Shown: positions 8,140 to 22,797 of the stretch, in pieces
Layout of the letters: every line of letters begins with the position of its first letter
Position numbering within the stretch: position 1 is the stretch's first letter
Origin: Gemella haemolysans
GTDB lineage: Bacteria > Bacillota > Bacilli > Staphylococcales > Gemellaceae
Length of the DNA: 42,601 nucleotides
Direction: 5' to 3'
NCBI RefSeq assembly: GCF_001553035.1
Contig: NZ_KQ959927.1
Span: forward strand, 1 to 42,601
Program-made: the position numbers and the translations under genes
Notes under the pieces: model-generated
What the model was told of the DNA's origin: nothing
The model's database searches: none
Seen by the model: the letters and a program-made list of their open reading frames with translations, nothing else

Positions 8140-9165
8140 CTATTTAACGATAACTGCTTTTTCTTGTTTTTCTATAACTTTTCCTACGATAGCACTCTTA
8201 ATTTCAAGAGTATTAAGTTTTTCTAATAATTCATGTGCTTCATCCTCTGGTAAGCTTATTAATAACCCACCTGAAGTTTGTGGATCATACATGATTTCTT
8301 CTAATGCAAAGTCTTTAACCTGATATTCTACATTCGGCTCAACAAACGTTCTGTTTAATTGTCCACCGGCAGTAATAACAAATTCATTAGCACATTTATA
8401 TGCTTCTTCAATATATGGAATATCTTTTGTATATACTTCTGCAGAATATTTGCCATCTAGCATCTCTACAAGATGTCCTAGGAAACCAAATCCTGTGATA
8501 TCTGTACAACTATTTACGTTGAAATCTTTCATCATTTGAGCAGAGTATTTATTAAGTGTTGTCATTTGTTTAACGCTTTGAGCAAATGCTTCTTCAGAAC
8601 ACTCTTTAACCATATGGGCTGTATTAATAATACTTACACCTAAAGGTTTTGTTACTATTAGTAAATCCCCTACTTTACAATTGTTATTTTGTAATATTTT
8701 ATCAGGATGAACAATTCCTGTTACTGATAAACCATATTTTGGTGTAGCATCATGAATAGAGTGCCCTCCAGCAAGCACTCCCCCTGCTTCATGAACTTTC
8801 TCAGCTCCACCTTTTAATATTTGATGTAATATTTCTAAGTCCATATTTTCTGGGAAGGCAACGATATTCAATGCTGAAATAACTTCCCCACCCATTGCAT
8901 ACACATCACTTAGTGCATTAGTAGCTGCTATTTGACCATATAAATATGGATCATTAATCATCGTTGTGAAGAAATCTAAAGTTTGAATAATCGCCTTATC
9001 TTCAGATATTTTATAAACGGCTGCATCATCTGAAGATTCATATCCTACTATTAAGTTTTTATCTTCTTTTTTAGGAAGATCTCTTAAGATATCTGACAAG
9101 GCCCCTGGCCCTATTTTCGAGTTTCACCCTCCGCAAACTATCATGTTCATTTTTTTCTCTGACAT
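8140..9165 (-). CDS. selD: Selenide, water dikinase; Sec-containing, in-frame UGA at codon 14
   Basis: SelD makes selenophosphate from selenide and ATP. The frame opens at ATG 9165, seven bases after GGAGG, and runs 341 residues if the TGA at 9126-9124 is read as selenocysteine: the active-site motif is CGGU-NSKIGPGAL, with Sec at 14 and the catalytic Lys at 17. Without UGA readthrough the frame starts only at TTG 9099 and loses the active site. The downstream part is a complete SelD (FTTMINDPYLYGQIAATNALSDVYAMGG; GGHSIHD; CTDITGFGFLGH). A hairpin at 9098-9112 fits a bacterial SECIS. First gene of the selenium operon. Confidence 0.97.
9098..9126 (-). promoter_or_regulatory. UGA codon and SECIS-like hairpin of selD
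   Basis: Twelve bases after the UGA (9126-9124) a 6-bp stem AGGGCC-AGG-GGCCUU forms at 9112-9098. The apical loop lies 18-20 nt after the UGA and has a G among its first two bases. These features match the published description of bacterial SECIS elements (stem behind the UGA, loop roughly 16-37 nt away, early G). The run of G and C is striking in such AT-rich DNA. Confidence 0.85.
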
Positions 9166-9199
9166 ATTTACCTCCAATTTATACTACTACTTAACTATA

Positions 9200-9228
9200 A
9201 TTATACTACTTCAAAACATTTTTTAAAA
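9200..9228 (-). promoter_or_regulatory. Likely selD operon promoter
   Basis: Minus-strand -10 TATAAT (9205-9200) is 17 bp from a weak -35 TTTTAA (9228-9223). The -35 hexamer overlaps the first bases of the 29-bp attachment site, so element integration leaves the promoter intact but changes everything upstream of it. Confidence 0.5.
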
Positions 9229-9253
9229 GTATTATTTAGTTTTTTAATGTAAA
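9225..9253. repeat. attL: left copy of the 29-bp attachment core
   Basis: 29 bases identical to 22711-22739, same orientation. The flanking bases differ (T versus C to the left, T versus A to the right), so the repeat is exactly bounded. It lies next to the integrase gene and about 60 bp from the selD start. Confidence 0.9.
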
Positions 9254-9286
9254 TTATCCTTGTTCTATTAGATATCTAGCAACCTG

Positions 9287-9304
9287 CTCTCCGTTAACTC
9301 TCCG
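9287..9304 (+). repeat. Integrase arm-site pair, left end
   Basis: CTCTCCG at 9287-9293 and again at 9298-9304, spaced 11 bp (about one helical turn). The same pair with the same spacing recurs at 20678/20689 and 22587/22598. It lies between attL and the end of the integrase gene. Confidence 0.65.
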
Positions 9305-9308
9305 ACTT

Positions 9309-10412
9309 TTAAATACTCATGAATTTATAGAATTTTTCTGTAGTTTCTTTACTTTTTTCATCTGTAATATGAGTGTATGTATTCAATGTAGTTGTTATAT
9401 CTTTGTGACCTAATCTATTTTGAATTTCTTTCGCACTCAAGTCACTTTCAAATAATAAAGTTGCGTGAGTATGGCGGAAACCGTGCGGGGTTATCTGTTT
9501 TAGTTTTGGAAAATCTCTGTATATCCTTAGTAACATACCATTAAAATAGTGTCTTGAGTTTTTTATAAATACTCCATTATTAATACTTATAAAGTTATCT
9601 AGTTCTCTATAACTCTTCAATTCTTTAATGGTTTCATCATCAAGAAATATAATTCTTTCACTTGATTTTGTTTTAGTCGTTGAGATTTTCGACTTACTTC
9701 CGATATTCATCATATTTTTACTAATAGTTAATGTTTTTTTCTTAAAATTAATATCTTTCCATGTTAAAGCCCTCAACTCTCCTAAACGAATACCAGTAAA
9801 AGCTAGTATGCGAAAAGCTATATAAGTTTCACTTGAATAATTTTCCTTAACTATTTTTAAAAACTGTAACAATTCTTTTTTAGTGTAATAATTCTTTTTC
9901 TTTTCTTCTATCTTCTTAGGTACTTTAGTTAATTTCATATAGTTGGTAGGTATTATCTCCATCTTAACAGCATAATCTAAAATTTGAACTATAGTACCTT
10001 TTATTAAAGTTACATAGCCTTTTTTATAAGTTTTTGAAACCTCATTTATAAAGTTTTGGCAATATGGCAACTTAATATTAATGATTTTTAACTCTTTAAA
10101 AACTGGTAGTATCCTTTTATCTAGAATAGTTTTTATAGTATGATAGCTACTTTCTTTTACTTGTGTTTTGTGTTGTTCTTCCCAAAGTTTGTACACATCA
10201 CCAAAAGTAATATTTTCACTTCGTAGAAAGTTACTACCATTTAAAAACTCGTTCTTAGCCTTAACTATATAATTTTGTGCTTCTCTCTTTGTTCTAAACC
10301 CTTTTTTAGAAATTCTTTTTTCTTTTCCTGTGTAAACATTTTTACCAAGGTATTCATTTTTTACCTCGTAGTATTTTTTATTTTCTTTACTGTTAATGTA
10401 TTCTTTTATCAT
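9309..10412 (-). CDS. int: Site-specific tyrosine integrase of the element
   Basis: 367 residues in the standard three domains: an N-terminal arm-DNA-binding domain (about 1-55, TGKEKRISKKGFRTKREAQN), a core-binding SAM-like domain (about 65-165), and a catalytic domain. Catalytic residues visible are R209 (AFTGIRLGELRAL), H310 and R313 (TPHGFRHTHAT), H336 (RLGHKDI) and Y346 (TLNTYTHI). This matches Tn916/phage-type integrases. It is transcribed toward attL, which lies 56 bp past its stop. An arm-binding domain predicts short repeated arm sites, and the CTCTCCG pairs near both ends fit that. Confidence 0.96.
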   Translation of the reverse strand: MIKEYINSKENKKYYEVKNEYLGKNVYTGKEKRISKKGFRTKREAQNYIVKAKNEFLNGSNFLRSENITFGDVYKLWEEQHKTQVKESSYHTIKTILDKRILPVFKELKIINIKLPYCQNFINEVSKTYKKGYVTLIKGTIVQILDYAVKMEIIPTNYMKLTKVPKKIEEKKKNYYTKKELLQFLKIVKENYSSETYIAFRILAFTGIRLGELRALTWKDINFKKKTLTISKNMMNIGSKSKISTTKTKSSERIIFLDDETIKELKSYRELDNFISINNGVFIKNSRHYFNGMLLRIYRDFPKLKQITPHGFRHTHATLLFESDLSAKEIQNRLGHKDITTTLNTYTHITDEKSKETTEKFYKFMSI

Positions 10413-10430
10413 TTTCTCTCATTCCTCTCA

Positions 10431-10470
10431 CTAGTGCCAGTAGTTTTATAAATAAATGAAAATGTTAGCT
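10431..10470 (+). repeat. Dispersed repeat copy A (AGTGCCAGTAGTT family)
   Basis: Begins CTAGTGCCAGTAGTTTTATA and extends 40 bp. A second copy is at 15499-15537 (same strand) and a shorter inverted copy at 22531-22560. This copy lies just upstream of the integrase start. Its function is not known. Confidence 0.7.
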
Positions 10471-10482
10471 ACATTATGTAAG

Positions 10483-10572
10483 ATATGATATAATGAAGTT
10501 ATCTTTATTAGATGCATTCAAAATATCATTTTCGATTAAAATCACTGGTTTAAGTCAGTGATTTTTTTATTT
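10483..10572 (+). ncRNA. Candidate short RNA: promoter followed closely by a strong terminator
   Basis: An extended -10 (TGATATAAT, about 10485-10493) is followed within 75 bases by a perfect hairpin AATCACTG / CAGTGATT (about 10543-10565) and a T-rich tail. This sits in the 574-bp gap between int and fic, where no convincing gene lies. A 22-codon ATG frame overlaps the -10 box itself and is probably not used. The remainder of the gap holds the 10869-10951 tandem hairpins. Confidence 0.4.
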
Positions 10573-10868
10573 TGTCAAATAAAGTTAGCTTTCTCATAAA
10601 AAACACCTCATATTTTAAATGATACAGCCTTTAAAAAGATTTTTAGGGTTATTACTCCAAAAGATAAAGAAACCTTTTAGAAGCTGTTTAAATAGCTAAT
10701 ATAAGAATGCAGTTTACATAACTATATAAATTTATGTTTATATGCTATTTTTTCTTAAATCAAGTAGCAAAATGAAAGAATACCGCATCTTTCTCCAGTT
10801 AAGCAACACATTTACTAAAAATTCAAGTGGTTGTAAATTATTAGTTGATAACCATTAGAGATATTGAT

Positions 10869-10951
10869 AATGGAAAAAACCTCTAGATTTTCCATTTTGA
10901 GTTACTAAATTATTTCCATAATGGAAAAATCACCTGTATTTTCCATTTTGA
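10869..10951. repeat. Tandem hairpin repeat downstream of fic
   Basis: Two copies of a 32-bp unit, 10869-10900 and 10920-10951, start AATGGAAAAA and end TTTTCCATTTTGA. Each unit is an inverted repeat (ATGGAAAA / TTTTCCAT). The period is 51 bp. It lies about 35 bp beyond the fic stop codon and could serve as a doubled terminator. Confidence 0.65.
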
Positions 10952-10986
10952 ACTGTAAGCTATTGATTGACTGTTCAAACTCAATT

Positions 10987-11712
10987 TTAACAATCCATCA
11001 TACTAATGTATTTTTCAAGTTCTTCAATTTCATAATTCGCTATTAAGTCAGTAAGGTAATCAGCATTGTTATTAATATGATATTCATCAAAACTATTGTA
11101 GTACTTTTCTCTATCTGTAAATTTAATATTTACTGGTAGCAATCCATGTTTTATTAATTCAAAATTAAGAAGTAGTCTTCCTGTTCTTCCGTTTCCATCA
11201 ATAAATGGATGTATACTTTCAAATTCTAAGTGTAATAGAGCTATTGCCTTTAATATATGATGATGTTGTTTCCACTCCTCATATTTAACTAGCAATTCAT
11301 CAATATTTCTTTCTATTTCTTGCGGTTCGCTAGTCTTATGACTTGAACCTAATATTTGAACGTTAACTTGTCTAAATACTCCTTTATTCTCTCTATCATT
11401 CATTAAAACTAAGCTGTGTATATCTTTTATAACTTGTTTTGTCAATGGCTCGTTAACAATATCTAGAATATAATAAAAAGCGTCCTTATATCCTATTACC
11501 TCTAAATGTTCACGTACCTTTTTACCTTGAATGGTAATTCCTTGTTGCAATATTAAAGCCGTTTCCCTTAAAGTAAGAGTGTTCCCCTCAATAGCGTTAG
11601 AGTTATACGTATTCTCTATAATAAAATTTTCTCTTAGCTTTTCAAGTTCAGTCTTGTTTAAAGGTCTAAGCTTTGCTATTTTCTCTTGTAACTTATCAAT
11701 CTTATCAAACAT
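10987..11712 (-). CDS. Fic family protein (AMP-transferase type), class II with N-terminal inhibitory helix
   Basis: 241 residues. The Fic core HPFIDGNGRTGR is complete at 168-179 (consensus HxFx[D/E]GNGRxxR), so His168 can act. The inhibitory motif SNAIEGN at 38-44 fits [S/T]xxxE[G/N], with E42 expected to block ATP until relieved. Such proteins usually transfer AMP from ATP to a target hydroxyl. Start ATG 11712 follows AAAGGAAGTG. It lies 75 bp behind the repressor gene on the same strand, so it is probably expressed in the integrated, repressed state. That placement suits a host-protection or maintenance cargo gene, but the target is unknown. Confidence 0.93.
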   Translation of the reverse strand: MFDKIDKLQEKIAKLRPLNKTELEKLRENFIIENTYNSNAIEGNTLTLRETALILQQGITIQGKKVREHLEVIGYKDAFYYILDIVNEPLTKQVIKDIHSLVLMNDRENKGVFRQVNVQILGSSHKTSEPQEIERNIDELLVKYEEWKQHHHILKAIALLHLEFESIHPFIDGNGRTGRLLLNFELIKHGLLPVNIKFTDREKYYNSFDEYHINNNADYLTDLIANYEIEELEKYISMMDC

Positions 11713-11786
11713 TGTTTCACTTCCTTTAAAAATCTGTGGTTAGTTTCACTTCATATTACTATAATCAGATACTAATATCATTGTAT

Positions 11787-12884
11787 CTACTCCATTTTAC
11801 CTAATATAGGGGCTAGATATTTACAATCAGGCTTTTCAGTTATCTTTGTTATAAAGTAAGAATTATCATGATTTAATATGAAGTATTGTACTTCTGTATT
11901 TAGTGGTACGTCTTCTATATAATCATAATCGGCTAGATAATAGAGTACATTGTTTTTCTCAATTATCAGCCCCAGTATTTTTTTATAATTATCTAGACCG
12001 TATTTATTAGTATTTAAAAAATAACCGCTAGATTTTAAATAAAATGTATTTTTTTTAAAAATAACTTCCATATCATTTTCACACAGTTTAATCAGTGTTT
12101 CATAATTCATATATTCTATATGTTTTTTTGTAAGCATACCAAAAGACTGTTTATAATCTAGTTCATGAATAATGTATGAAAAGAATACATAAATAGAAAT
12201 TTTATTTTCTATATTACTTTTTGATAATAAGAGTAATGAAGTATATGTATCAAAATTAGCAATTATATATTTTTTTGTTTTATTAGAAATTCTAGAATTA
12301 TGAACAATTAAATTTCTTAAGTAAGACAAGTACTCATAATCGTATGATTTTGAAATACAATATATAGCTTGAATTAAAACTTCATTTTTTAAAATAGAAC
12401 GTACTTCATTTTCAAAAATCTCTATAGATGATGTTTGACTATCGATAAAATCAAGTATTTCAATAACTTTATTTTCTAATAAAGAATTAAACGCTTGCTC
12501 TATACTTTTTATATCATTTACAGAAATTTCAATTATTTTACTTGAGCAAATTTTCTCTATATATTCTATACAAAGTTCTACTAAATTATAAGTGTATAAA
12601 AGGCTTTTATACGGATATTTACTATTCATTAATAATACTTCAATATTATTTTCTAAAAACTCGTTAATAGAACCGTACAACAATTCATTAACGGTAATAC
12701 CTGCCATTTCACTAATATTAGCTAATCTTTCTTTATTAGGTAATGTAAAACCAGTTTCCCACTTTTGTGCATTACTTTTGGTAGCACTAAATACTTTTCC
12801 AAAACTTTCTAAAGTATACCCCTTACTAATTCTAATTTCTTTTATTCTAAAGCCTACTTGTTGTTTATCTATCTTTATTTTCAT
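11787..12884 (-). CDS. HTH (XRE-type) repressor of the element with a long unknown C-terminal domain
   Basis: 365 residues. Residues 1-65 form a Cro/CI helix-turn-helix (GFRIKEIRISKGYTLESFG ... SNAQKWETGFTLPNKERL). The remaining 300 residues are helical, rich in Ile/Tyr/Asn, with no LexA-type peptidase dyad that I can see and no match I recognise. A GTG at 12896 is in frame, but GAGGTGA lies ahead of ATG 12884, which is preferred. It diverges from the Cro-like gene across a region with paired operator-like repeats. The size and layout resemble satellite master repressors (Stl-like), which are relieved by a helper-phage protein binding rather than by self-cleavage; this is inference. Confidence 0.8.
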   Translation of the reverse strand: MKIKIDKQQVGFRIKEIRISKGYTLESFGKVFSATKSNAQKWETGFTLPNKERLANISEMAGITVNELLYGSINEFLENNIEVLLMNSKYPYKSLLYTYNLVELCIEYIEKICSSKIIEISVNDIKSIEQAFNSLLENKVIEILDFIDSQTSSIEIFENEVRSILKNEVLIQAIYCISKSYDYEYLSYLRNLIVHNSRISNKTKKYIIANFDTYTSLLLLSKSNIENKISIYVFFSYIIHELDYKQSFGMLTKKHIEYMNYETLIKLCENDMEVIFKKNTFYLKSSGYFLNTNKYGLDNYKKILGLIIEKNNVLYYLADYDYIEDVPLNTEVQYFILNHDNSYFITKITEKPDCKYLAPILGKME

Positions 12885-12954
12885 TGAATATATCACCTCA
12901 AATACTAATACATATTTTCATTATACATTATCTTTATAAAAAAAGAAACAAGAA

Positions 12955-13036
12955 AGTATAAAAATGAACTCAAAAAATAGTTGACATTACTTTTTTAGTA
13001 TGTTATTATGTTTATAGAGTATAAAACTGTACTCAA
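12955..13036. promoter_or_regulatory. Divergent control region: operator-like repeats and rightward promoter
   Basis: Two 19-bp direct repeats, AGTATAAAAATGAACTCAA (12955-12973) and AGTATAAAACTGTACTCAA (13018-13036), differ at only two positions, and the second contains the dyad GAGTA/TACTC. Between them lies a strong rightward promoter, -35 TTGACA (12981-12986) and -10 TATTAT (13004-13009), spacing 17. A leftward -10 TATAAT is also visible near 12922-12927. This is the expected genetic switch. Confidence 0.75.
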
Positions 13037-13060
13037 GAAAAAAAGAAGGTGGTGAATATT

Positions 13061-13273
13061 ATGGAAAAACCTAAAATTAATAAAATACGTGCATATCGTG
13101 AAGCATTAAATTTATCACAAAAAGAAATGGGAAAATTAATAAATGTACATCATGTTGTATACAGTCGTAAAGAAAGAAAAATAGTTAATTTTACAGATAA
13201 AGAAAAAATAACTTTACTCACTTATTTTAAGAAGTTTTTTCCAGATGAAACTATTGATACTTTATTTTTTTAA
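13061..13273 (+). CDS. Cro-like HTH regulator
   Basis: 70 residues starting MEKPKINKIRAYREALNLSQ. The XRE helix-turn-helix is KIRAYREALNLSQKEMGKLI ... VHHVVYSRKERK. Two GTG codons at 13049 and 13052 are in frame but overlap the ribosome site AGAAGGTGG, so ATG 13061 is the start. First gene of the rightward operon, transcribed from the TTGACA/TATTAT promoter and divergent from the large repressor. A Cro-type or activator (Str-like) role is inferred from position. Confidence 0.85.
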   Translation: MEKPKINKIRAYREALNLSQKEMGKLINVHHVVYSRKERKIVNFTDKEKITLLTYFKKFFPDETIDTLFF

Positions 13274-13383
13274 ATCTAAAGTATCAAAAAGGAACCAAAA
13301 AACTTTGCATTAAATTAAAATGCGAGCCAGTCTAATAAAAAAAATTCTCTTTATACCTTTTGTTGAATTATGAAAATGCATTT

Positions 13384-13448
13384 GCTAAAAATTAATCAAT
13401 CAGAAATGTTAAAAATTAACAAATGGATTTGTCAAAAACTAACAAATG
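13384..13448. repeat. Three iteron-like repeats, about 23-bp period
   Basis: GCTAAAAATTAATCAAT (13384), GTTAAAAATTAACAAATG (13408) and GTCAAAAACTAACAAATG (13431) are spaced 24 and 23 bp. They lie in the 783-bp gap between the Cro-like gene and the Rha-type gene, just before AT-rich tracts. They could be binding sites for an element regulator or a replication protein. Confidence 0.6.
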
Positions 13449-13495
13449 TAATCAAAAGAAAAATAAAAGATTAAATAAAGAGAATGTATATATAA

Positions 13496-13692
13496 TCATT
13501 CATCATTATATATATTATATATAGGGTGGGAAGAATTGGGAATATCGAAGTAGACAAAATGACCATATCTGAAATGGTCAAAATGACCACTTCTCAAGTA
13601 GACAAAATGACCACACCTATACCAAATAATAAAAAATAATAACAATGATTTATATTATATCATCATTCATCATATATATATTATATATAGGG
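13496..13692. repeat. AT-rich direct repeats flanking a small segment
   Basis: A 31-bp sequence TCATTCATCAT-(AT-rich)-TATATATAGGG at 13496-13526 recurs at 13663-13692 with a one-base deletion. Each copy ends in GGG followed by a potential GTG start. The block between contains the 24-bp VDKMT repeats. Confidence 0.7.
13526..13639 (+). pseudogene. Possible remnant of a phage replisome-organizer gene, with 24-bp in-frame repeats
   Basis: A 37-residue frame from GTG 13526 contains VDKMTISE-MVKMTTSQ-VDKMTTPI then a stop. The underlying DNA repeat (AAGTAGACAAAATGACCA) occurs at 13548, 13572 and 13596, period exactly 24 bp, i.e. eight codons. From family knowledge, VDKMTTP-like octapeptide repeats occur in phage replication-initiator proteins, where the coding repeats can double as origin iterons. 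No ribosome site of quality and no HTH domain are present, so I read it as a remnant or as DNA binding sites rather than a working gene. Confidence 0.4.
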
Positions 13693-13781
13693 GGTGATTT
13701 GACTGAATGAGAGATAAAAAAAGAACCTTTATACCGTTATCAGTTCGCCAAAACAATCTAACGTTATAAGGTTTGAAAACC

Positions 13782-13842
13782 GCTATTTACTAAAAAATAA
13801 CTTACTTTTATTATATCGTAAGAACCCTTATTAGTAAATAGC
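13782..13842. promoter_or_regulatory. Large nested hairpin upstream of the Rha-type gene
   Basis: Perfect 12-bp arms GCTATTTACTAA (13782-13793) and TTAGTAAATAGC (13831-13842) enclose a second hairpin CTTAC/GTAAG. No strong T-run follows. It may be a leader attenuator or a cruciform-forming site. It is one of several long-range inverted repeats in the element. Confidence 0.55.
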
Positions 13843-14056
13843 AAAGCACAAAATAAATATAACTATCTAAATTTGTTGAATAGATTTTCTAATGTGTTTA
13901 AACCTACTCTATAGATTTAATGAACACTTTAGAACCTATATAAACCTTTATTTAGTCAGCAGTATTTATTTTGAAAGAATAGAATTACTATACTCTATTC
14001 TTCTATTTAATTTAATAAGGGCTTTTTGTCACGCCCTAGAAATGAGGTGAAAGACA

Positions 14057-14647
14057 ATGACAAACACAAATATAATAAAAATTGATGGCAATACAGTAGA
14101 GGTAATAAGTGAAACATTACATATTACTGATATTAATAATAAAACAGAGTGGACTAGCGTCGAACTTGTAGACGTTATAAACCATTTTAGAACTCTAGAC
14201 GGGAAAAAAACTCAATTAAGACATGATACACTTTTAAATATCTTACGTGATGAATTTAGCGAAGAAATCTCACTCCAAAATATTTTGGAACGAACTTACA
14301 CTAATTCACGTGGTCAAACATATCCAATGTATAAACTTTCAAATTCACAAGCTAAACAAATATTAGTAAGAGAAAGTAAAGCTGTAAGGCGTGCGGTTAT
14401 CAAACTACTAGAGTACCTAGAGCAACATAACAAGCATAATCTTAATATTTTAAATGAGCGTGAAGCTTTTCTATATGAGCAAGGCTTAATTATTGATACT
14501 GTTGATAAAATGGCGGACTTGATAAAGAAAACTAAAGAACTTAGCAATAAAAAAGATATTTGCCAAAGAATTATCAATCTTATCAACGCTAGTCAAAGTA
14601 GTGTACCGTTGCCAACTAGAACAGCTTACACTACTACTTATAATTAA
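14057..14647 (+). CDS. Rha-family phage regulatory protein
   Basis: 196 residues. Residues 25-125 match the phage regulatory Rha layout: WTSVELVDVINHF (the usual TS-x2-VAE region), then a short acidic stretch, TYTNSRGQTYPMYKLSNSQAKQIL, and a helical end. The C-terminal 70 residues are a predicted coiled coil. Family knowledge: Rha-type proteins are lambdoid and Gram-positive phage regulators; some block growth in hosts lacking IHF, but their general role is unclear. Start ATG 14057 follows GAGGTGA. It heads the mid-operon group that runs to 15451. Confidence 0.75.
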   Translation: MTNTNIIKIDGNTVEVISETLHITDINNKTEWTSVELVDVINHFRTLDGKKTQLRHDTLLNILRDEFSEEISLQNILERTYTNSRGQTYPMYKLSNSQAKQILVRESKAVRRAVIKLLEYLEQHNKHNLNILNEREAFLYEQGLIIDTVDKMADLIKKTKELSNKKDICQRIINLINASQSSVPLPTRTAYTTTYN

Positions 14648-14663
14648 AAGGCGGTAAAGTATT

Positions 14664-14795
14664 ATGAAACAAACAAAAATGAATAACGAGCACAAAGAAA
14701 TGTACATTAATACTTTATGTTTAGCGTTAGTAGGGTTTCCGTTAGTGTATGCTTTTACCTACATTATAGCCCGATTTATGGACGTATTTTATTAA
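14664..14795 (+). CDS. Small membrane protein
   Basis: 43 residues from ATG 14664, 16 bp after the Rha-type stop, with the ribosome-binding sequence AGGCGGTAAAG before it. Residues 16-38 are strongly hydrophobic (NTLCLALVGFPLVYAFTYII), one membrane span, with a charged N-terminus (KQTKMNNEHKE). Tight spacing on both sides (19 bp to the next gene) argues it is translated. Similar tiny membrane proteins are common in phage early regions. I do not recognise a family. Confidence 0.65.
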   Translation: MKQTKMNNEHKEMYINTLCLALVGFPLVYAFTYIIARFMDVFY

Positions 14796-14814
14796 AGAAA
14801 GGTAACAATAGATT

Positions 14815-15084
14815 ATGGAAGTTGTTTTAACTGAAAATCAAAGTTTGAAGATTAAAGAGCAAATTACTAATTTAATTAATGAGGTGATAAAAGAAAGACT
14901 GAACACTATTAACCCCGAAAAAAGGTATTTTACACGTACTGAATTACAAAAGTACCTAAATATAGGGGCTAGTAGCATGGAGCAACTACAAGCGTTAGGG
15001 CTTCATTATGTAAAGGTTGGTAATAGACATTTATTTGATATTCAAGAAGTATATGATATTTTTGAAAATCACAAAGTAAGATAG
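14815..15084 (+). CDS. Excisionase-like small DNA-binding protein
   Basis: 89 residues. The C-terminal half RYFTRTELQKYLNIGASSMEQLQALGLHYVKVGNRHLFDIQEVYDIF is a winged-helix MerR/excisionase-type fold (helix-turn-helix then a beta wing with the VGNRHLFD turn). The N-terminal 35 residues are a charged helix. In elements like this, such a protein usually serves as Xis, bending DNA at the att arms to direct excision. It might instead be a general regulator of the DUF771/HTH_17 kind. The ribosome site AAAGG lies before ATG 14815. Confidence 0.65.
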   Translation: MEVVLTENQSLKIKEQITNLINEVIKERLNTINPEKRYFTRTELQKYLNIGASSMEQLQALGLHYVKVGNRHLFDIQEVYDIFENHKVR

Positions 15085-15100
15085 TTATGAGGTAATAAAA

Positions 15101-15451
15101 ATGGAACTAAACGAGATTATAGAAGATAAAAAAGAATTAACCGAAGTTATAAAGGATATTGAGGAAATAGCCCAAAGATTAGCAAGCTTGCATGTTTCAA
15201 TGCGAATATTAGCTACACATTGCTTGGTTATTAACACACTCTCAACAGATGAGTTTAAAACCTTAAAAATAACGGAAGAAGAATTGTGGAAGTATTGGGA
15301 CAAAGTGCAAAACGGTAGAAACTTACATACGTTAACAGAAGAAACCGCTCTTCAGTTATCAGAAGAGTTAAGCTTTTTAATATATGTATCTCTAGAAGAA
15401 GTAAAAGAAGCACTACAAAATATTAATAAAGTATCAAACGATATTATTTAA
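15101..15451 (+). CDS. Hypothetical helical protein
   Basis: 116 residues, ATG 15101 with GAGGT ten bases upstream and 16 bp after the previous stop. Acidic and almost wholly helical, with heptad-like stretches at 1-40 (IIEDKKELTEVIKDIEEIAQRLASLHVS) and again near the end (SLEEVKEALQNINKVSND). I do not recognise it. Lies at the end of a four-gene block that shares close spacing, before a 270-bp gap. An accessory role in the element is all that can be inferred. Confidence 0.7.
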   Translation: MELNEIIEDKKELTEVIKDIEEIAQRLASLHVSMRILATHCLVINTLSTDEFKTLKITEEELWKYWDKVQNGRNLHTLTEETALQLSEELSFLIYVSLEEVKEALQNINKVSNDII

Positions 15452-15498
15452 TAGATGTAGAGCAATTACAAAATAGAACAATTTTAAAAAATATAAAT

Positions 15499-15537
15499 CT
15501 AGTGCCAGTAGTTTTATAAGTGAATGAGAATGTAGCT
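15499..15537 (+). repeat. Dispersed repeat copy B (AGTGCCAGTAGTT family)
   Basis: Same sequence family as 10431-10470, beginning CTAGTGCCAGTAGTTTTATA, with a few substitutions and one deletion towards the right. Lies 48 bp after the previous gene. Confidence 0.7.
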
Positions 15538-15545
15538 GTTTAAAG

Positions 15546-15635
15546 CACATATGAGCCTTTTAAAGTATTTCTTAGGTGAAATCATATCAAAGGAAAATAA
15601 ACGGCTTGTATGTGCCTTTATTTTAATCTACAAAA
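15546..15635. terminator. Long-loop inverted repeat, probable terminator
   Basis: Arms AAGCACATATGAGCC (near 15553) and GGCTTGTATGTGCCTTT (near 15603-15619) pair imperfectly and are followed by TATTTTAAT. Between the arms is AAAGGAAAATAAACGGC, close to AAAGAAAATAAACAGC at 16113-16127. It separates the 14057-15451 block from the next gene. Confidence 0.4.
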
Positions 15636-15724
15636 GCGTTTATTTACTAAAAATACTGTTGTTAGGCATAGCACTAGTTATTTTTATAAAATCAAAAAAC
15701 TAATTTTAAACAAGAGGTAAAACC

Positions 15725-16045
15725 ATGGAAATAAAAGACTTTAAAGAACACGTACTTAAAACTTTGTTAGAGTATGAACAGCTAAACAAAGAATTACAAA
15801 CAGTTAGAGAAACTTATATTACAGCCCTATCTAATTTTTACAAAGATAATAGAGTATTTTTTTGTACAGATAAAGAGGAACTTGTAAGAGAATTTTTTAA
15901 CAGTGAAATTTTTAATCAAGCCCACTTTTTAACAATTCATAAATCACTAATTAATGAAGTTGAAACAAATGTGAAAATTAAACACACTGAACTTGTAGAA
16001 GCGTTCAACATGTTAGATAAGTTATGGGAGAGAAAAGAAAACTAG
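15725..16045 (+). CDS. Hypothetical helical protein
   Basis: 106 residues, ATG 15725 with AAGAGGT eight bases upstream. Mostly helical and charged: residues 1-35 (KDFKEHVLKTLLEYEQLNKELQ) look like a coiled coil, and the centre has FFCTDKEELVREFFNSEIF. No family recognised. It is flanked on both sides by long inverted repeats. Size and position fit the small accessory genes that sit between regulators and the replication gene in satellites. Confidence 0.65.
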   Translation: MEIKDFKEHVLKTLLEYEQLNKELQTVRETYITALSNFYKDNRVFFCTDKEELVREFFNSEIFNQAHFLTIHKSLINEVETNVKIKHTELVEAFNMLDKLWERKEN

Positions 16046-16124
16046 CTTGTATTAGCTAATATTTTGCTTGTTAAAGCTCAAGAATAAATAAAATGGTATA
16101 TTTTTATCAAAAAAGAAAATAAAC

Positions 16125-16222
16125 AGCTTAGAAGTCGTTTAAATAATTCTGAATTTTACGTACAGGAAATTTATTTCTTGTGTACAAGTTGAGATTAGAT
16201 AACTTAAACGATATTGTAAGCT
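16125..16222 (+). promoter_or_regulatory. Long-range inverted repeat in the leader of the short recombinase gene
   Basis: AGCTTA...CGTTTAA (16125-16142) pairs with TTAAACG...TAAGCT (16204-16222), closing just before the AGAAAGGAA ribosome site of the gene at 16240. Inside is GTACA...TGTGTAC. The outer stem ends a few bases from the ribosome site, so it could affect translation. Confidence 0.45.
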
Positions 16223-16239
16223 AGAAAGGAACAAATACA

Positions 16240-16788
16240 ATGTATTATGTAGAACCGTTAAAGAACAAGGAAGACATAAAAATCCTTGATAGTTATTTTA
16301 AACAGCAAAATTCTAGAAATCACTTGTTATTCAACTTAGGTATTAATACACCTATGCGAGTAAATCAATTAGTAAAATTAAAAGTACGTGATGTGCTAGA
16401 TAAGGAAGAAATAACAGTAATAGTTGGTAGAAAGGTTATATCATTTCCATTAGGTAAAAAACTACAGAAATTGATAAAAGATTATTGTATAGATAAGGAA
16501 ACTAATGACTTTCTTTTTAAATCTTTGAGACTAAAAAGAGGTTATAAACCACTAACAGAAAACTATGTAAATAAAATTATAAAAAATGCAAGTCAAAAAT
16601 GTAATCTAAATAATATTGGTGCTAGTTCACTTAGAAAGACATTCGCATATTTCTATTATGAGCGAACTAAAAATATACGTAGTTTAATGAAACTACTAAA
16701 CCACCATGACCAATATTTTACTTTGCAATACATAGGGAAAAATGAGAATTTCTATAATGATAATTTCATAGAATGGGAAGAACTTTAA
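16240..16788 (+). CDS. Short tyrosine recombinase (catalytic domain only), His box altered
   Basis: 182 residues containing only a tyrosine-recombinase catalytic domain. Box I is NTPMRVNQLVKLKVRDV with R40. Box II reads GASSLRKTFAYFY: R132 is present, but the usual His three residues earlier is S129. The second His region is LLNHHDQYF (H155/H156), and Y164 in LQYIGKN is the candidate nucleophile. No core-binding or arm domain. Start ATG 16240 follows AGAAAGGAA. It may be an element-borne resolvase or accessory recombinase, or may act with the full integrase. Lack of the His is tolerated in some family members. Confidence 0.85.
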   Translation: MYYVEPLKNKEDIKILDSYFKQQNSRNHLLFNLGINTPMRVNQLVKLKVRDVLDKEEITVIVGRKVISFPLGKKLQKLIKDYCIDKETNDFLFKSLRLKRGYKPLTENYVNKIIKNASQKCNLNNIGASSLRKTFAYFYYERTKNIRSLMKLLNHHDQYFTLQYIGKNENFYNDNFIEWEEL

Positions 16789-16965
16789 CTATGAAAATAA
16801 AAAATATTTTTGTTCATTCCTCTTGTAGGTGATATGCGGAATAAAAATAAGTGAAAGTTGTTGAATATCTTGAAGAGAAAAGAAAAAACTCTATATATAG
16901 ATACGTAACAAACTATAAGATATGATACATAGTCAATGACTAAAATATATATTTTTAATATTTGT

Positions 16966-16995
16966 CAGTCAGTCAATCAACAGTCAGTCAATCAA
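16966..16995 (+). repeat. Perfect 15-bp tandem duplication
   Basis: CAGTCAGTCAATCAA occurs twice head to tail, after AGTCAATGACT (a dyad) at 16931-16941. It lies about 100 bp before the primase-helicase gene, in the 304-bp gap 16789-17092, which shows no gene. The TCAGTCA units could be binding sites controlling replication gene expression. Confidence 0.7.
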
Positions 16996-17092
16996 TAATA
17001 ATGTTAGCTAAACTTTGTTACATTGAATGCTTTAACTAGACTTACATTTCTATATAGAGCAAATAAAATAAACTTAGAAAGGAGTTGTTAGT

Positions 17093-19288
17093 TTGATTTA
17101 TAAACAAATTGGAACAACTACAAATAAACTTACTAAAGTACACCATAAACTATCACCTTTTGAAACCATAGCAATAACGCCGATAGACATCATAGAAGAT
17201 ACGGAAAACAAAGAGAATTATAAACGTTATAAAGCTATTCAATTCGTAAGTGGTGAATTTAGCGAGGAAGAGAAAAAGCCAATCATTAGGAATAACGAGA
17301 ATTTATATTATAGAGATTTAATTATAATTGATATTGATGAAATAGAACTCAACAGTAATCAAGCAATTAATTTAATTAAATGTGAACTACAGGAATTTAA
17401 ATATTTATTGTATGCTACTCTTAACCATACGGAAGATAAACCACGTTTTAGGCTTGTTTTAGAGCCAACAAAGAAAATGAATGAGAATGAGTATAAAGCT
17501 ACTATAATTCATGTTATGGCTTTGTTAAATATGAATTTTGATGAACATAGCTTCACATGGTCACAACCTCAAGGAGCACCAATAACCACTAAAAGTAATA
17601 GTAATAACTATGTTTTCATCAAAAAATTACAAGGAAATAAATTTCCAGTACAACAGCCAAAACAAGAATATTTTCAATACTCTAATACTTATGAAAACTA
17701 TTCAATTTCTCATGATGAAGCTATACAAAGAGTAAAAGAATACACTGAAAGAGAAAGTAAAAATCTAGAGAAAAGAAGTAATTTTATTTCTTGTATTATG
17801 GTACTTTGTAAAGCAGTTACAACAGGTGAAATAGAATATGTTACGGGGCTTGAATGTAGTAGACTATTAGCAAATATTCCTAACAGTTTCCCAAAATGGG
17901 AACAAGAAAATCAACAAATGTTTAATGAAGAGCTAAAACGCTCTAGAGGTAACGTAAATTATTTTAAAACAAAATATAGTTTTAAAGAAAAATTTTCACA
18001 TAAAAATAAAAAAACTAAGAAGCAAGATAAAAAGAAAGGTGGAACAATTTTGATAGAATTAACAAACTCAATCAAACAAATAAGAAATATTAAGTACAAT
18101 GAAATGACAAATCTAATTGAAATAGAGAAAGACGGTTGTTTTAAAACTCTAGAAAATAGAGATATACAACTATTAAGATTGAATTTATCTGAAAAAAAAA
18201 ACACAACATTTTCTACAGATGATATTAAAACCTCTATATATGGAATTAGCGAACTAAATAGATACCATCCTATTAAAGAACTTATAGAAGCTGTTCAATG
18301 GGATGGAGTAAAAAGAGCGGAAAAATTCTTTATTGATTGTTTAGGGGTTGAAGATAACGAACTTAATAGAGAAGTTACAAGAAAATGGTTATTAGCTTGT
18401 ATTACTAGACTATATGAAAAAGGGCGTAAATTTGATGAAATGTTAATATTGTTCGGTGGTCAAGGTATTGGGAAAAGTACCACTCTTGAACGCTTGGCAT
18501 TAGATACATTTTATACAAAAGTAACTGGTAAATTGAGTAATGAAACTATTCTACAAACTTCAAAAACATGGCTAGTTGAATTGGACGAACTAAGCACTTT
18601 ATTAAGAACACCAAGTGAAGAGTTTAAAGCGTGGTTATCTTCAAGAAAAGATACTACTAGAGTACCTTACGAAGCCCAACCGCTAGACTTTGAAAGAGGG
18701 TTTATAGTATTGGGAACAACTAACAACAAGAAGATATTGAAAGATAATACAGGAAATCGTAGATTTTGGATATTAGACTGTAATAAAGATAATATCAAGA
18801 CATCTATTTTTAGCTTAACTAAACAAGATATACTTCAAGTATGGGCGGAAGTTAGAACATGGTATCTTAAAAATGAAAGTCTTTTGTTAAGTCAAACAGC
18901 TAGAAAGATGATGGAAGAAAAAACAGAAAACTATGTTATACCTATTCCATTTACTGATGAAATAAAGAATATTACTAATATGAAATTTCCTCGTAACTGG
19001 AAAGAAATTATACACGGTAAACACAAGTATAGGTTACATAGATACGTTACTGATATGTTAAACGCTGGAACAAGTACAGAAGATATTTCACAAGATGTAT
19101 TGTTAGATGATATTACTACACAAGAACTTTTCTTCTTACTAACTGGTAATTATAGAACCTTTCTAAATGGTTTAAAAGCTACTAAAGATTTTAGTAACGT
19201 TTTTAATATGTTAGATAATTGGAAATCTTCCAAAGCCATTTCACGTGGTGAAAAAAGAGATTTGAGGGGCTATAAAAAAATCAATTAA
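17093..19288 (+). CDS. Replication protein: primase-like N-terminus fused to VapE/VirE-type helicase
   Basis: 731 residues. The start is TTG 17093, eight bases after AGAAAGGAG, the only ribosome site nearby. Residues 60-190 resemble a small archaeo-eukaryotic primase-polymerase: IIIDIDEIE with D80/D82, and YATLNHTEDKPRFRLVL around 107-123. A lysine-rich linker (300-317) leads to a virulence-associated-E helicase domain: YHPIKELIEAVQWDG, Walker A GGQGIGKST (455-463), Walker B WLVELDEL (493-500) and NRRFW. Such Pri-Rep proteins drive autonomous replication of satellites after excision. The iteron-flanked AT tract right after the gene is its expected origin. Confidence 0.9.
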   Translation: MIYKQIGTTTNKLTKVHHKLSPFETIAITPIDIIEDTENKENYKRYKAIQFVSGEFSEEEKKPIIRNNENLYYRDLIIIDIDEIELNSNQAINLIKCELQEFKYLLYATLNHTEDKPRFRLVLEPTKKMNENEYKATIIHVMALLNMNFDEHSFTWSQPQGAPITTKSNSNNYVFIKKLQGNKFPVQQPKQEYFQYSNTYENYSISHDEAIQRVKEYTERESKNLEKRSNFISCIMVLCKAVTTGEIEYVTGLECSRLLANIPNSFPKWEQENQQMFNEELKRSRGNVNYFKTKYSFKEKFSHKNKKTKKQDKKKGGTILIELTNSIKQIRNIKYNEMTNLIEIEKDGCFKTLENRDIQLLRLNLSEKKNTTFSTDDIKTSIYGISELNRYHPIKELIEAVQWDGVKRAEKFFIDCLGVEDNELNREVTRKWLLACITRLYEKGRKFDEMLILFGGQGIGKSTTLERLALDTFYTKVTGKLSNETILQTSKTWLVELDELSTLLRTPSEEFKAWLSSRKDTTRVPYEAQPLDFERGFIVLGTTNNKKILKDNTGNRRFWILDCNKDNIKTSIFSLTKQDILQVWAEVRTWYLKNESLLLSQTARKMMEEKTENYVIPIPFTDEIKNITNMKFPRNWKEIIHGKHKYRLHRYVTDMLNAGTSTEDISQDVLLDDITTQELFFLLTGNYRTFLNGLKATKDFSNVFNMLDNWKSSKAISRGEKRDLRGYKKIN

Positions 19289-19353
19289 AGATGGCGTTAA
19301 AGAACATTTCAAAGTTAGTAAACGCCACCTATAAAATGTTATAACATCAGTAT

Positions 19354-19484
19354 TTAGGACGTATTGGACGTTTAAGGCATTTTTTCATATATTATATATA
19401 ATAATAAATATATATAATATAGTATATATTATATTCCTACTAATACGAACCAAAAAAACGTCCTAAAACGCTGTAACGTCCTAA
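19354..19484. other. Candidate replication origin of the element
   Basis: TTAGGACGT (19354-19362) and a variant ATTGGACGT (19363-19371) lie left of a roughly 50-bp tract that is almost pure A/T (19381-19435). To the right, ACGTCCTAA occurs at 19458-19466 and 19476-19484, i.e. the same 9-mer on the opposite strand. Two sets of iterons around an AT-rich region directly 3' of the rep gene is the described plan of SaPI origins. The remaining gap (19289-19915) holds only inverted-repeat arms (GGCGTT/AACGCC at 19293-19326) and no gene. Confidence 0.65.
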
Positions 19485-19915
19485 GCCTTTCATATCAAGG
19501 ATGAATAAGAGCCGTTTAGATGAAAATCAAATGGAGTTTTAAACGCCCACTACAAATAGTTTGAGGATTGTTATGTAATAATTAGAAAATATTACACATC
19601 AACTTTATTGAATAAAGAAAGATATTACATAATTAATAAAAATAGCTTTTCAAGAATGTTTTTCAAAAATTTACAATAATATATTTAGAAAGAAAACTAA
19701 TCAAGTTAAGATAACAAGATTAGTTTTCTTTATTTTACTATTATTTCAAATGCTAACAGCTTTTAAGAGGTTGAAAGGTATTAATTTTATCAAAATAAAA
19801 TTAGAATGCTTATACACCTTTTAAATGGCTCTTAATTTTAAGAAAAGAACTTGAAACAGAAAAATATATAGTATATCATTGAATTTCAATATTAAAACAA
19901 AGAGGTTAACTCATT

Positions 19916-20065
19916 ATGAATGAAAACTCACCAAAGCAATATGATATTGAATGTTTAGAAGATATACACGATTTAATAATAATGAATGAGTATGAAGAAA
20001 GAAAAGCAAATAATGAAGTTGAATATATAACTTTTGAAGAGATGAAAGAAGTACTTGATATATAG
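19916..20065 (+). CDS. Small acidic protein resembling the C-terminal half of RelB-type antitoxins
   Basis: 49 residues from ATG 19916, preceded by AAAGAGGTTAAC. It reads MNENSPKQYDIECLEDIHDL ... ITFEEMKEVLDI. The pattern DxExLEDIxD plus a terminal S/TxEExxxxLG/DI helix is that of the toxin-binding tail of RelB/StbD-like antitoxins, but the DNA-binding N-terminus is missing and no RelE/ParE-like toxin follows. It could be an orphan antitoxin fragment, an anti-toxin decoy, or an unrelated small acidic protein. Confidence 0.55.
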   Translation: MNENSPKQYDIECLEDIHDLIIMNEYEERKANNEVEYITFEEMKEVLDI

Positions 20066-20200
20066 AGTTTATTGCTAAGAACAAGTACTGATTTAAGTTT
20101 ATATTTCTTACTACATTTAACTAAAAATTTCTTGTAATTACATAAAATATTATTTACAATAAAGGTATAAGATAACATTTTTAAAAGGGAGTAGATTTAT

Positions 20201-20497
20201 ATGTTAGAATTAAAGATATTTTATAAAACTGGTGTAGAAACGTTTTATTGTACAAATTATAACGCTATGTTAGATACAATATCAGATGAAGTAAGTAACA
20301 ATATTATAGATGACTTGCTAGCATACATTGAAGATATTACTTTACTTGAGAATAAGGGAGTTATGAACGAACAACTATTTAACAAGTATTTACGTAGACT
20401 GAAAGAACAGCAATACAAAGAAATAATATTACTACATCTTGAGAAATTAGGGTTAGATTATGAGATTAATAAATTAAAACGTTCTGAATATAGATAA
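20201..20497 (+). CDS. Hypothetical protein, last gene of the rightward operon
   Basis: 98 residues, ATG 20201 with AAAAGGGAG eleven bases upstream. It starts MLELKIFYKTGVETFYCTNY, a probable beta hairpin, then helices to the end (LDTISDEVSNNIIDDLLAYIEDI; KYLRRLKEQQYKEIILLHLEKLGLDYEI). I do not recognise a family; the helix-rich acidic character and position after the replication module are like satellite interference or accessory proteins, but nothing in it proves this. A perfect long-range inverted repeat (20513-20599) follows. Confidence 0.65.
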   Translation: MLELKIFYKTGVETFYCTNYNAMLDTISDEVSNNIIDDLLAYIEDITLLENKGVMNEQLFNKYLRRLKEQQYKEIILLHLEKLGLDYEINKLKRSEYR

Positions 20498-20512
20498 TAA
20501 AATTTTAGTAAC

Positions 20513-20606
20513 GGCTATTTGAGATAATTTAAAATTATTAGAAATGAAAACTTGTGAAGATTAAAAAAATTCTAGTAATTAAGATTAAGTCAAATAGCCC
20601 CTTTTT
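20513..20606 (+). terminator. Long-loop terminator of the rightward operon
   Basis: GGCTATTTGA (20513-20522) is perfectly complementary to TCAAATAGCC (20590-20599), which is followed by CCTTTTTTATC. The 67-nt loop is unusually long for a simple terminator, so the loop may itself be structured. Confidence 0.6.
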
Positions 20607-20677
20607 TATCATCTTTAAATACGGTATTTAATTTTTAAGTACTCTAGAGCCTTGATATACTTGACTTTTTAAAAATA

Positions 20678-20695
20678 CTCTCCGAAAACTCTCCG
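20678..20695 (+). repeat. Internal copy of the integrase arm-site pair
   Basis: CTCTCCG at 20678-20684 and 20689-20695, 11-bp spacing, AAAA between as at the right end. It is 2 kb from attR, further than arm sites usually are. Confidence 0.6.
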
Positions 20696-20830
20696 AAGTT
20701 AGACGAAAAAAACTATTTTTTGTTAAAAATCATTTTAGAAACTGAAAAGCAAAATAGAAATATTTTAAGATAAACAGATTTAATTGCTAGTAAAAATATA
20801 CACATTCAAAAGCTAGATATTTTAAATACT

Positions 20831-20953
20831 GGTATGTGCATTTTTTACACATACCATACTACATTATTTATTTTAGTGAATTAAAAGAGATTAATATAAA
20901 TCGTATAGAGCTAAGTTAATATAGGTTGGTGCATTTTGCACTAACTTTATTTT
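20831..20953 (+). terminator. Two consecutive hairpins
   Basis: GGTATGTG (20831-20838) pairs with CACATACC (20848-20855). Then GTTGGTGCA (about 20926-20934) pairs with TGCACTAAC (about 20936-20945), followed by TTTATTTTTT, a good rightward terminator. Both loops centre on a GCATTTT motif. There is no gene between them, so a short RNA with its own terminator is possible. Confidence 0.5.
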
Positions 20954-21780
20954 TTAGTTTGTATATTTTTATAAAGAAATTAAATATTAAACCCTCTGTA
21001 TATCTTTTGTATGCTCTCTACTCTAGATACAAACCTAGTAATCATACAAGGTACATTGATTATACTGGAGTATACAAGAGCTTGTTTATTTTATGTAGTT
21101 CTCTATAAAAGGTATTTATCTTAAAAGAATATCTAACAAAGAATTACAAGAGTATTGATATTCAAGAGAAGTAATATTATATGGTGATAATTGCTTCGCT
21201 ACATTAATGCAAGAGGTAGCTAAGTATATATACTAATCATATACAAGTAATTAAGATTATGTATAGATATCTAAATAAGTTGATTAATGGTATCAGATAC
21301 TAGAGGATAAGCAACACTAATATATATTCATTCGGTTATATCATATCATTATATATTCATAGATAGCTAACTAATGTAGATTGATATGTACTATATACTG
21401 TTGGGCTTATTCCAGTTACCTAATCACCTTATACCATATGGCTATATACTTGATACAAGTATCATGATTGAATAGGTTTGTTGTAAGTGATAGATAGATA
21501 CATCAAGTAATTAGTAACAATGAACTAAGATGTAAAGATAATATGAAAGTAGATTAGATTAATATGTTATCAATGAATGTAATATGATTATGAAAAGAAT
21601 ATGTAAAAGATTAAATAATTTAAACAAAAGAATAAATATTAATTTGTTTAATTGTATTTAACATTAAAGATGAAAGATAGAAAGATACAAAGATACAAAG
21701 GTATGAGCCAAGCCAAGGGCTAAGGATAGCATAAGGATATATTACTATAAAAGGTATGAGGTATACTTCCCTTAATTGAG
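20954..21780. other. Gene-free AT-rich stretch
   Basis: About 830 bp with no supported gene on either strand: the frames are short, lack ribosome sites and are rich in stops. It is made of simple motifs (TATATAC, GATAGATAGATAC near 21490, AAGATACAAAGATACAAAGG near 21680). A 60-codon frame at 20926-21108 overlaps the terminator and has no ribosome site, so I leave it out. In a satellite this is where packaging or cargo genes would be expected. Confidence 0.6.
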
Positions 21781-21897
21781 AAGACCGCCCCCCCTATTAA
21801 AAATCTCAAAAAATAAAAAAACTTAAAGACCAACCTGCCCTCATTCATTCACAATGGCACAACCTCGCTAACCATTATTGGAAAAATAAAGACAAAA

Positions 21898-22000
21898 AAA
21901 AGAACCTCTCATTTAATTTTGAGAAGTCTTCTAATATTTGCTAAACTTATTTCTACAGTAATTATAAACCATTAAAAATAAAAAATCAATAGGTTTATTT
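21898..22000 (-). ncRNA. Candidate small RNA with consensus promoter and terminator
   Basis: Minus strand: -35 TTGATT and -10 TATAAT separated by exactly 17 bp (-10 near 21966-21971), then about 60 nt with no reading frame, ending in a hairpin ACTTCTCA/TGAGAGGT (near 21914-21938) and TTCTTTTTTTT. It is the fourth minus-strand unit in a row at this end of the element. No similarity recognised. Confidence 0.5.
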
Positions 22001-22055
22001 CTTGAAATTCATCAATGATAAAATGTAGTTAAAAATACTTGCTGTAAATTTAATA

Positions 22056-22156
22056 AAAAGAAAAACGCTAAGGGCTGCAACCCAAAGCGTAAAAAATAAA
22101 CATATATCTGCAAAGATAGGTAACCTGTACCGCCTATCTTCCTTAAAATTATTATA
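22056..22156 (-). ncRNA. Tandem small transcript, unit 1
   Basis: Minus strand: -10 TATAAT (22156-22151) inside an inverted repeat ATTATAAC/GTTATAAT; a 5' hairpin AAGATAGG/CCTATCTT (22140-22113); a strong terminator ACGCT...AGCGT (22090-22065) with a T-run. The promoter block is closely similar to that of unit 2, but the 5' hairpin sequence differs from units 2 and 3. Confidence 0.5.
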
Positions 22157-22195
22157 ACATATACTTCTAAAGAATGAAAGTTATAATGTAGTTAC

Positions 22196-22296
22196 AAAAA
22201 ATAAAAAAAGCCTAGTGCCGAACACACTAAGCAAAAATAGAATTCATTCTTTAAGTGGGCGTGTTCCCGCATGCTCCACCTTTTAAAAATATCATA
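22196..22296 (-). ncRNA. Tandem small transcript, unit 2, with a possible 26-residue peptide
   Basis: Minus strand: -10 TATGAT (22296-22291); a 5' hairpin AGGTGGAGCATG/CGCCCACTT (22282-22253); terminator GCTTAGTG/CACTAGGC (22232-22210) with a long T-run. A frame from ATG 22272, seven bases after AAAGGTGG, runs to TAA 22192: MREHAHLK followed by a hydrophobic half rich in F, L, C and Y. The frame reads through the terminator stem. Could be a type I toxin-like peptide or pure RNA. Confidence 0.5.
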
Positions 22297-22335
22297 TCAT
22301 ATACTCTTAAAGAATAAAAGTTATGATATAGTTAA

Positions 22336-22423
22336 GCCTAGTGCCACAAACACTAAGCTAAAATAACATAATTTACTTTAAAGTGGACGTGTTCCCTCAC
22401 GTTCCACCTTTTCAATTATTATA
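22336..22423 (-). ncRNA. Tandem small transcript, unit 3, paralogue of unit 2
   Basis: Minus strand: -10 TATAAT (22423-22418), -35 TTTACT at 18-bp spacing; a 5' hairpin GTGGAACGTG/CACGTCCAC (22407-22383); terminator GCTTAGTG/CACTAGGC (22358-22336), identical in both arms to unit 2. A frame from GTG 22400 encodes MREHVHFKVNYVILA. The first eight residues match those of unit 2 as MREH(A/V)H(L/F)K, with synonymous changes at Arg and Lys. Confidence 0.55.
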
Positions 22424-22530
22424 TCATAGCAATACATAGCAAGTAAAACGATATACTAGAAATAATCAAAATTCTTGTTAAACTACTTTAATTTAACAAG
22501 AAAAAACAGATAGCAAAATACTACCTGTTA

Positions 22531-22560
22531 TCTCATTTATTTATAGAACTACTGGCACTT
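22531..22560 (-). repeat. Dispersed repeat copy C (inverted)
   Basis: Reverse complement AAGTGCCAGTAGTTCTATAA plus ATAAATGAGA matches copies A (10431) and B (15499). Copies A and C thus lie near opposite ends of the element in inverted orientation. Confidence 0.65.
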
Positions 22561-22576
22561 ATTTTATGTGTTTTTG

Positions 22577-22604
22577 TTTCCGAAAACTCTCCGAACTCTC
22601 TCCG
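22577..22604 (+). repeat. Integrase arm-site cluster, right end
   Basis: CTCTCCG at 22587-22593 and 22598-22604 (11-bp spacing), with a degenerate TTTCCG 11 bp earlier. It lies 107 bp inside attR and matches the pair at the left end. Confidence 0.65.
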
Positions 22605-22710
22605 AAAAGTCTTGAAATTTGATATTGTATAGAAATCTATTTCTTTAATATATCGTTATTATATCAACGGTTAGAAGTATTTTATATTAAAGTGAAATAG
22701 TATCATTATC

Positions 22711-22739
22711 AAAAGTATTATTTAGTTTTTTAATGTAAA
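22711..22739. repeat. attR: right copy of the 29-bp attachment core
   Basis: Identical to 9225-9253. It ends at the edge of the terminator stem at 22741, so the original target was the gap between that terminator and the selD promoter. Confidence 0.9.
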
Positions 22740-22740
22740 A

Positions 22741-22792: not shown

Positions 22793-22797
22793 ATATT

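Follow-up and report, generated by a model that had tools for sequence, protein, structure and literature searches.

A phage-satellite-like element in Gemella that appears to integrate at the edge of the selD promoter and to leave the promoter in place

The described systems closest to the locus analyzed here are a phage and a family of chromosomal islands. The attB of phage HK022 lies between torS and torT of Escherichia coli and overlaps the torS promoter region; the native torS promoters are disrupted on integration, and torS is then transcribed from a phage promoter near the int end (PMC6814406). Integration of SpyCI at mutL in Streptococcus pyogenes blocks transcription of mutL and of the genes downstream from it (PMC3430984, PMC4689407), and one SpyCI strain has a cryptic promoter, within a decayed int, from which mutL is expressed (PMC3430984).

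We analyzed a window that comprises the whole of contig C15 (42,601 bp, about 30% G+C) in the 1.89-Mb draft genome of Gemella haemolysans. We consider it likely that a PICI-like element with the anatomy summarized in Table 1 sits at a 29-bp core between the terminator of a neighboring gene and the selD promoter and that it retains this promoter on integration. In the mechanism that we propose, the tyrosine integrase would recombine this core, with the terminator of a cell-surface gene on one side and the selD operon promoter on the other.

Table 1. Positions of the element, its attachment sites, and the flanking features in the window
Feature	Position	Strand	Basis or remark
selD, with in-frame TGA (Sec) at 9124-9126	8140..9165	-	TIGR00476; first gene of run
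Presumed selD -10, TATAAT	9200..9205	-	TAGTATAAT invariant in 11/11 family genomes with full selD
Presumed selD -35, TTTAAA, straddling core edge	9222..9227	-	CTTTTAAA conserved in 9/9 genus genomes
attL core, 29 bp, selD-proximal	9225..9253	-	Repeat of 22711-22739; once, 29/29, in G005 and G007 empty sites
Integrated element including both cores	9225..22739	.	One unit = 13,486 bp
Putative arm-type Int site pair, attL side (CGGAGAG)	9287..9304	-	
Tyrosine integrase, co-directional with selD, stop 55 bp from core	9309..10412	-	Phage_integrase, SAM-like and Arm domains; phrog_1
Fic-domain protein, accessory gene	10987..11712	-	PF02661; PADLOC candidate PDC-S04 and SoFic matches
HTH repressor-like regulator	11787..12896	-	HTH_3 just below cut-off; phrog_8/4/3
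Small divergent HTH (Cro-like) regulator	13049..13273	+	phrog_3, E 1.6e-7
Rha/Ant-like anti-repressor protein	14057..14647	+	phrog_63, E 8e-9; Phage_pRha below cut-off
Small HTH DNA-binding protein, possible excisionase	14815..15084	+	phrog_668, phrog_15534
Second tyrosine recombinase, catalytic domain only, 182 aa	16240..16788	+	PF00589; phrog_216
VapE-type helicase/primase (replication)	17093..19288	+	PF05272, 1e-62; phrog_256, phrog_1313
Third CGGAGAG pair, internal	20678..20695	-	In 3/3 elements
Putative arm-type Int site pair, attR side	22587..22604	-	
attR core, 29 bp	22711..22739	-	Exact repeat
Intrinsic terminator of chromosomal neighbor gene	22741..22784	-	-17.3 kcal/mol, z = -5.6

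The two core copies form an exact 29-nt direct repeat, the longest within positions 9000 to 23200, which can be extended to 34 nt at 94% identity. Among 60 sequences simulated from a first-order Markov model of the region, none had a repeat longer than 19 nt (mean of the longest, 15.4 nt), so a repeat of 29 nt is beyond chance. The integrase gene adjoins a core that is repeated at both ends, the layout of a site-specific tyrosine-recombinase element. Each of the three elements examined has a pair of CGGAGAG sequences, 11 bp apart, toward either end and a further pair inside, and the attL-side pair keeps the same spacing and position in each. The proposal of a first-pass annotation of this DNA, that a mobile element is integrated at the selD promoter, is borne out by the agreement of the repeat, the integrase, and the occupied and empty sites described below; the range that it had given, 9200 to 9253, runs from the presumed -10 through the core.

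Nine genomes of the genus, one per species, were compared, G000 being the genome of the window. The selD-promoter site is occupied in three of them (G000, G003, and G004), with all 29 core positions intact at both ends and element lengths of 13,486, 13,670, and 13,486 bp, respectively; the integrases at this site in G003 and G004 are 96 to 99% identical to that of the window. The empty site predicted in the first-pass annotation exists in G005 and G007, each of which carries a single 29/29 core. The site is likewise empty in G008, where the core has two mismatches, and the core differs at no fewer than nine positions in G001, G002, and G006. A contig end in G001 lies too near the core for the upstream side to be read, leaving five readable empty sites. 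The order in an empty site is neighbor gene, terminator, core, selD promoter, and selD. The core of G007 (L036) matches at 29 of 29 positions despite a different promoter spacer and an identity of only 83% in selD and its flank, which hints at either strong constraint or a past integration followed by excision.

The comparison also bears on whether the locus is real. An assembly artifact or an incidental repeat, that is, a misjoined region or a chance match of two copies, might be suspected, since the window is one contig of 82 in a draft assembly. The same junction recurs, however, in independent assemblies, including the single-contig genome G004; empty sites exist; and the identities of the element and of its flank disagree, all of which make such an explanation extremely improbable. 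Between G000 and G004 the int module is 97% identical and the selD flank 88%, whereas between G000 and G003 the values are 93% and 96.6%. Because these identities disagree, the element was not inherited together with the chromosome, and the sequences speak for a site at which elements have been acquired or exchanged repeatedly and against a single old insertion. The promoter side of attL tracks the species, with G004 resembling G005 and G000 resembling G003, which is the pattern to be expected if the element integrates into the site native to each species.

The operon next to the element runs leftward from 9165 and comprises selD, yedF, a Se/S-carrier-like gene, selB, an aminotransferase-V/cysteine-desulfurase-like gene, and selA (Pfam assignments for the genes downstream from selD). 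The N terminus of SelD reads MSEKKMNMIVCGG-Sec, the in-frame TGA being codon 14. The in-frame TGA, which makes SelD itself a selenoprotein, is shared by all 11 genomes of the family that have a full selD; four of six sister-genus genomes have no selD above the cut-off. A selenocysteine tRNA is encoded on the same contig (31814 to 31906). Elsewhere on the contig, a TPP riboswitch (29015 to 29103, plus strand) lies upstream from a run of genes at 29184.

The best hexamer pair in front of selD is TTTAAA-16 bp-TATAAT (10 of 12 matches). Promoter-like matches in this AT-rich stretch occur at chance level (9 found versus 9.5 expected), so the case for the selD promoter rests on conservation, which is high in TAGTATAAT and CTTTTAAA and, unlike there, drops in the spacer and upstream from the core. 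No conserved motif or operator was seen upstream from the core in the five readable empty sites. The attB thus reaches into the 5' control region of selD, in that the core overlaps the presumed -35. The first-pass annotation had placed the core about 60 bp from the selD start and over the -35, in keeping with the distance of 59 bp to the start codon at 9165 and with the three -35 bases that fall within the core.

Integration at this attB does not remove the promoter, because it regenerates the -35, the -10, and about 24 bp of upstream sequence. The chromosome supplies the stretch between the right half of the -35 and the start codon, and the core puts back the 29 bp before it; from about -60 to the start codon, the two states are therefore identical in sequence. 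The claim that the core promoter is kept on integration, with both hexamers regenerated and the same sequence to about -60, was therefore correct. The accompanying claim that all upstream sequence is replaced was overstated; it applies beyond about -60, where the terminator and coding sequence of the neighbor differ between the two states and no conserved motif is present. The end of the core coincides with the presumed selD -35 region, and the integrase may use this edge because promoter function would keep it conserved between species. Basal selD transcription should survive integration, since the chromosome would supply the rest of the promoter and the core would regenerate the upstream 29 bp.

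The element's right end, as had been proposed, abuts a strong terminator; this terminator is real, but it is a property of the chromosomal neighbor and not of the element. Each of the five readable empty sites has such a hairpin immediately 5' of the core (-16.7 to -22.2 kcal/mol), and each of the three occupied genomes has one at attR (-17.3 to -21.8 kcal/mol); the hairpin is thus chromosomal and is carried 13.5 kb from selD. The upstream neighbor is a cell-surface gene. At attR of the window the adjoining gene (22798 to 23100) is a remnant of about 100 codons, and it is split in G004; in the empty-site genome G005 the neighbor has an open frame of about 396 codons that reaches to 58 bp from the core.

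At the other end of the element, the 55-bp stretch that separates int from the core showed no terminator on folding (z = +1.4 in the window). A second, strict scan found no attL terminator in any of the three occupied genomes; it also found few at nine related-integrase loci and is therefore a weak control. The attL of G003 has a modest fold (-10.5 kcal/mol) without a U-tract. By the measure of folding, then, attL has no terminator, and Rho-dependent termination may be possible there. Read from the sequence, the change brought by integration is one of insulation, a terminator being swapped for a co-directional int.

In its gene content the element looks like a phage satellite of the PICI type. 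An integrase, a regulatory pair, and a primase/replication protein are found together within the span of about 7 to 20 kb that marks Gram-positive PICIs, and no phage structural, lysis, or conjugation genes were detected among the element open reading frames (ORFs) scanned. No packaging or interference gene (terS, ppi, or cpm) was recognized, and several small ORFs of the element match nothing; satellite status is assigned by resemblance because neither a terminase small subunit nor another packaging-interference gene was recognized. Some phage satellites lack terS. The best matches of Int are to satellites of Streptococcus suis (about 38% identity) and to full prophages of other streptococci, and those of VapE are to satellites of S. 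pyogenes, S. dysgalactiae, and S. thermophilus (about 31 to 33% identity). Scans of genome and viral contig collections with Int returned distant relatives only (25 to 29%).

Several smaller features of the element were observed. The second recombinase (16240 to 16788) falls within the size range of DNA invertases, and inverted repeats are present at 15486 to 15529 and 22531 to 22574. A repeat of 27 to 44 nt occurs in three copies (10431 to 10465, 15499 to 15533, and 22531 to 22574) that contain CTACTGGCACTAG or a near match; it is a near-palindrome with one copy in the int leader and is a possible operator, and in G004 the exact 11-mer of this repeat is found at only two of these places. Between int and fic, and opposite to both, the stretch from 10440 to 10573 (plus strand) has an extended -10-like TGATATAAT and, about 50 bp farther on, a terminator hairpin (10538 to 10565), so that a short RNA might arise from the region of the int leader. 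What appear to be small-RNA-like units in tandem, two of which resemble each other, occupy 22040 to 22450 (minus strand) close to the right end of the element, with a 32-nt repeat (22208 to 22239 and 22334 to 22365, 88%), a promoter-like pair (22447 to 22418, 10 of 12 matches with an extended -10), and a hairpin terminator (22232 to 22210); Rfam gave no match for these units.

What integration means for the host operon can be read in several ways. Since int faces selD without a detected terminator between them, int transcription could enter the selenium operon, and the likeliest effect on the host, if there is any, would be this loss of insulation, with int transcription running into the operon chiefly during induction. 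We put forward such read-through only tentatively, as int may be almost silent in the integrated state. Close to an even chance, by our estimate, is that the site is a neutral safe harbor, a gap between terminator and promoter, with complete regeneration of the promoter, a silent int, and no effect on the selenium operon. This would fit the unchanged sequence from about -60 to the start codon in empty and occupied sites, the absence of a conserved motif upstream from the core in empty sites, and the persistence of the element in three species whose adjacent selD is intact apart from the Sec codon. It is harder to reconcile with the loss of the insulating terminator and with a co-directional int that ends 55 bp from the core without a detected terminator; in both precedents, HK022 and SpyCI, such an arrangement altered how the downstream gene was expressed (PMC6814406, PMC3430984).

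The operon might instead, as the first-pass annotation had suggested, be under an element-dependent switch, whereby integration removes an upstream operator or adds an element promoter and excision restores the wild type. In HK022 a phage promoter at the equivalent place drives torS (PMC6814406), and the Gemella element has a promoter-like pair, TTGCTA-18-GATAAT, between int and the core (9282 to 9253); this pair, however, is at chance level, its -10 is not kept in G003 (GCTAAT), and no conserved operator lies upstream from the core in the five empty sites, so that we consider a switch unlikely. The candidate of an element-borne promoter between int and selD was downgraded for the same two reasons, its chance-level score and its loss in G003. 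The anatomy makes read-through or lost insulation appear more likely than loss of an operator. A further effect is conceivable at attL, where bound Int might transiently block the selD -35. A coupling of selenium metabolism to the life cycle of the satellite, whether through int read-through or through shut-off by Int at attL, is distinctly unlikely; if it existed, induction would raise selenophosphate and Sec capacity in the read-through branch, and in either branch selenoprotein synthesis would differ between strains with and without the element.

Related integrases in the family (39 to 56% identical to Int, several with paired arm-like repeats just after int) offer another comparison. The neighboring gene is convergent with int at eight of nine such loci and co-directional at selD. 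Two of these integrases, in G000 (contig 41) and G008, are at rpmG, as judged from the protein sequence. For the closest paralogue (G004, 56%), no att repeat was found within about 21 kb on its 5' side. An attB beside selD had been called unusual, and the related integrases agree insofar as they mostly face a convergent gene, rpmG included, but HK022 at torS and SpyCI at mutL are published precedents. Literature searches gave nothing specific for Gemella with selenocysteine, no papers for Gemella with selD or with integrase and phage satellite, and, judging by titles and the beginnings of abstracts, nothing on point for selD with integrase and attB.

The selenium operon promoter adds a new integration target to the few elements that insert in host control regions, and it suggests that a conserved promoter can serve as a landing site without being broken. 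Species pairs with and without the element form a natural test of how terminator loss and a co-directional int relate to expression of a trace-element operon. In size, terminal integrase, divergent regulators, VapE-type protein, and absence of structural genes, the element resembles the Javan-series satellites of Streptococcus and other PICIs; unlike them, it has no recognized terS, cpm, or ppi-like gene, belongs to another host family, and has its att at the selD promoter. With SpyCI it shares the position of a satellite-like island at the 5' side of an operon, and it differs in that the selD promoter is on the retained side and intact in sequence. With HK022 it shares a tyrosine integrase, an attB that overlaps the promoter region of a neighbor, and the orientation of int, whose stop codon lies 73 bp from the chromosome junction in HK022 and 55 bp from the core here; unlike in HK022, the selD hexamers are regenerated and no significant element promoter is present. 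The kind of integration is known from these systems, and the selD promoter as its target is new.
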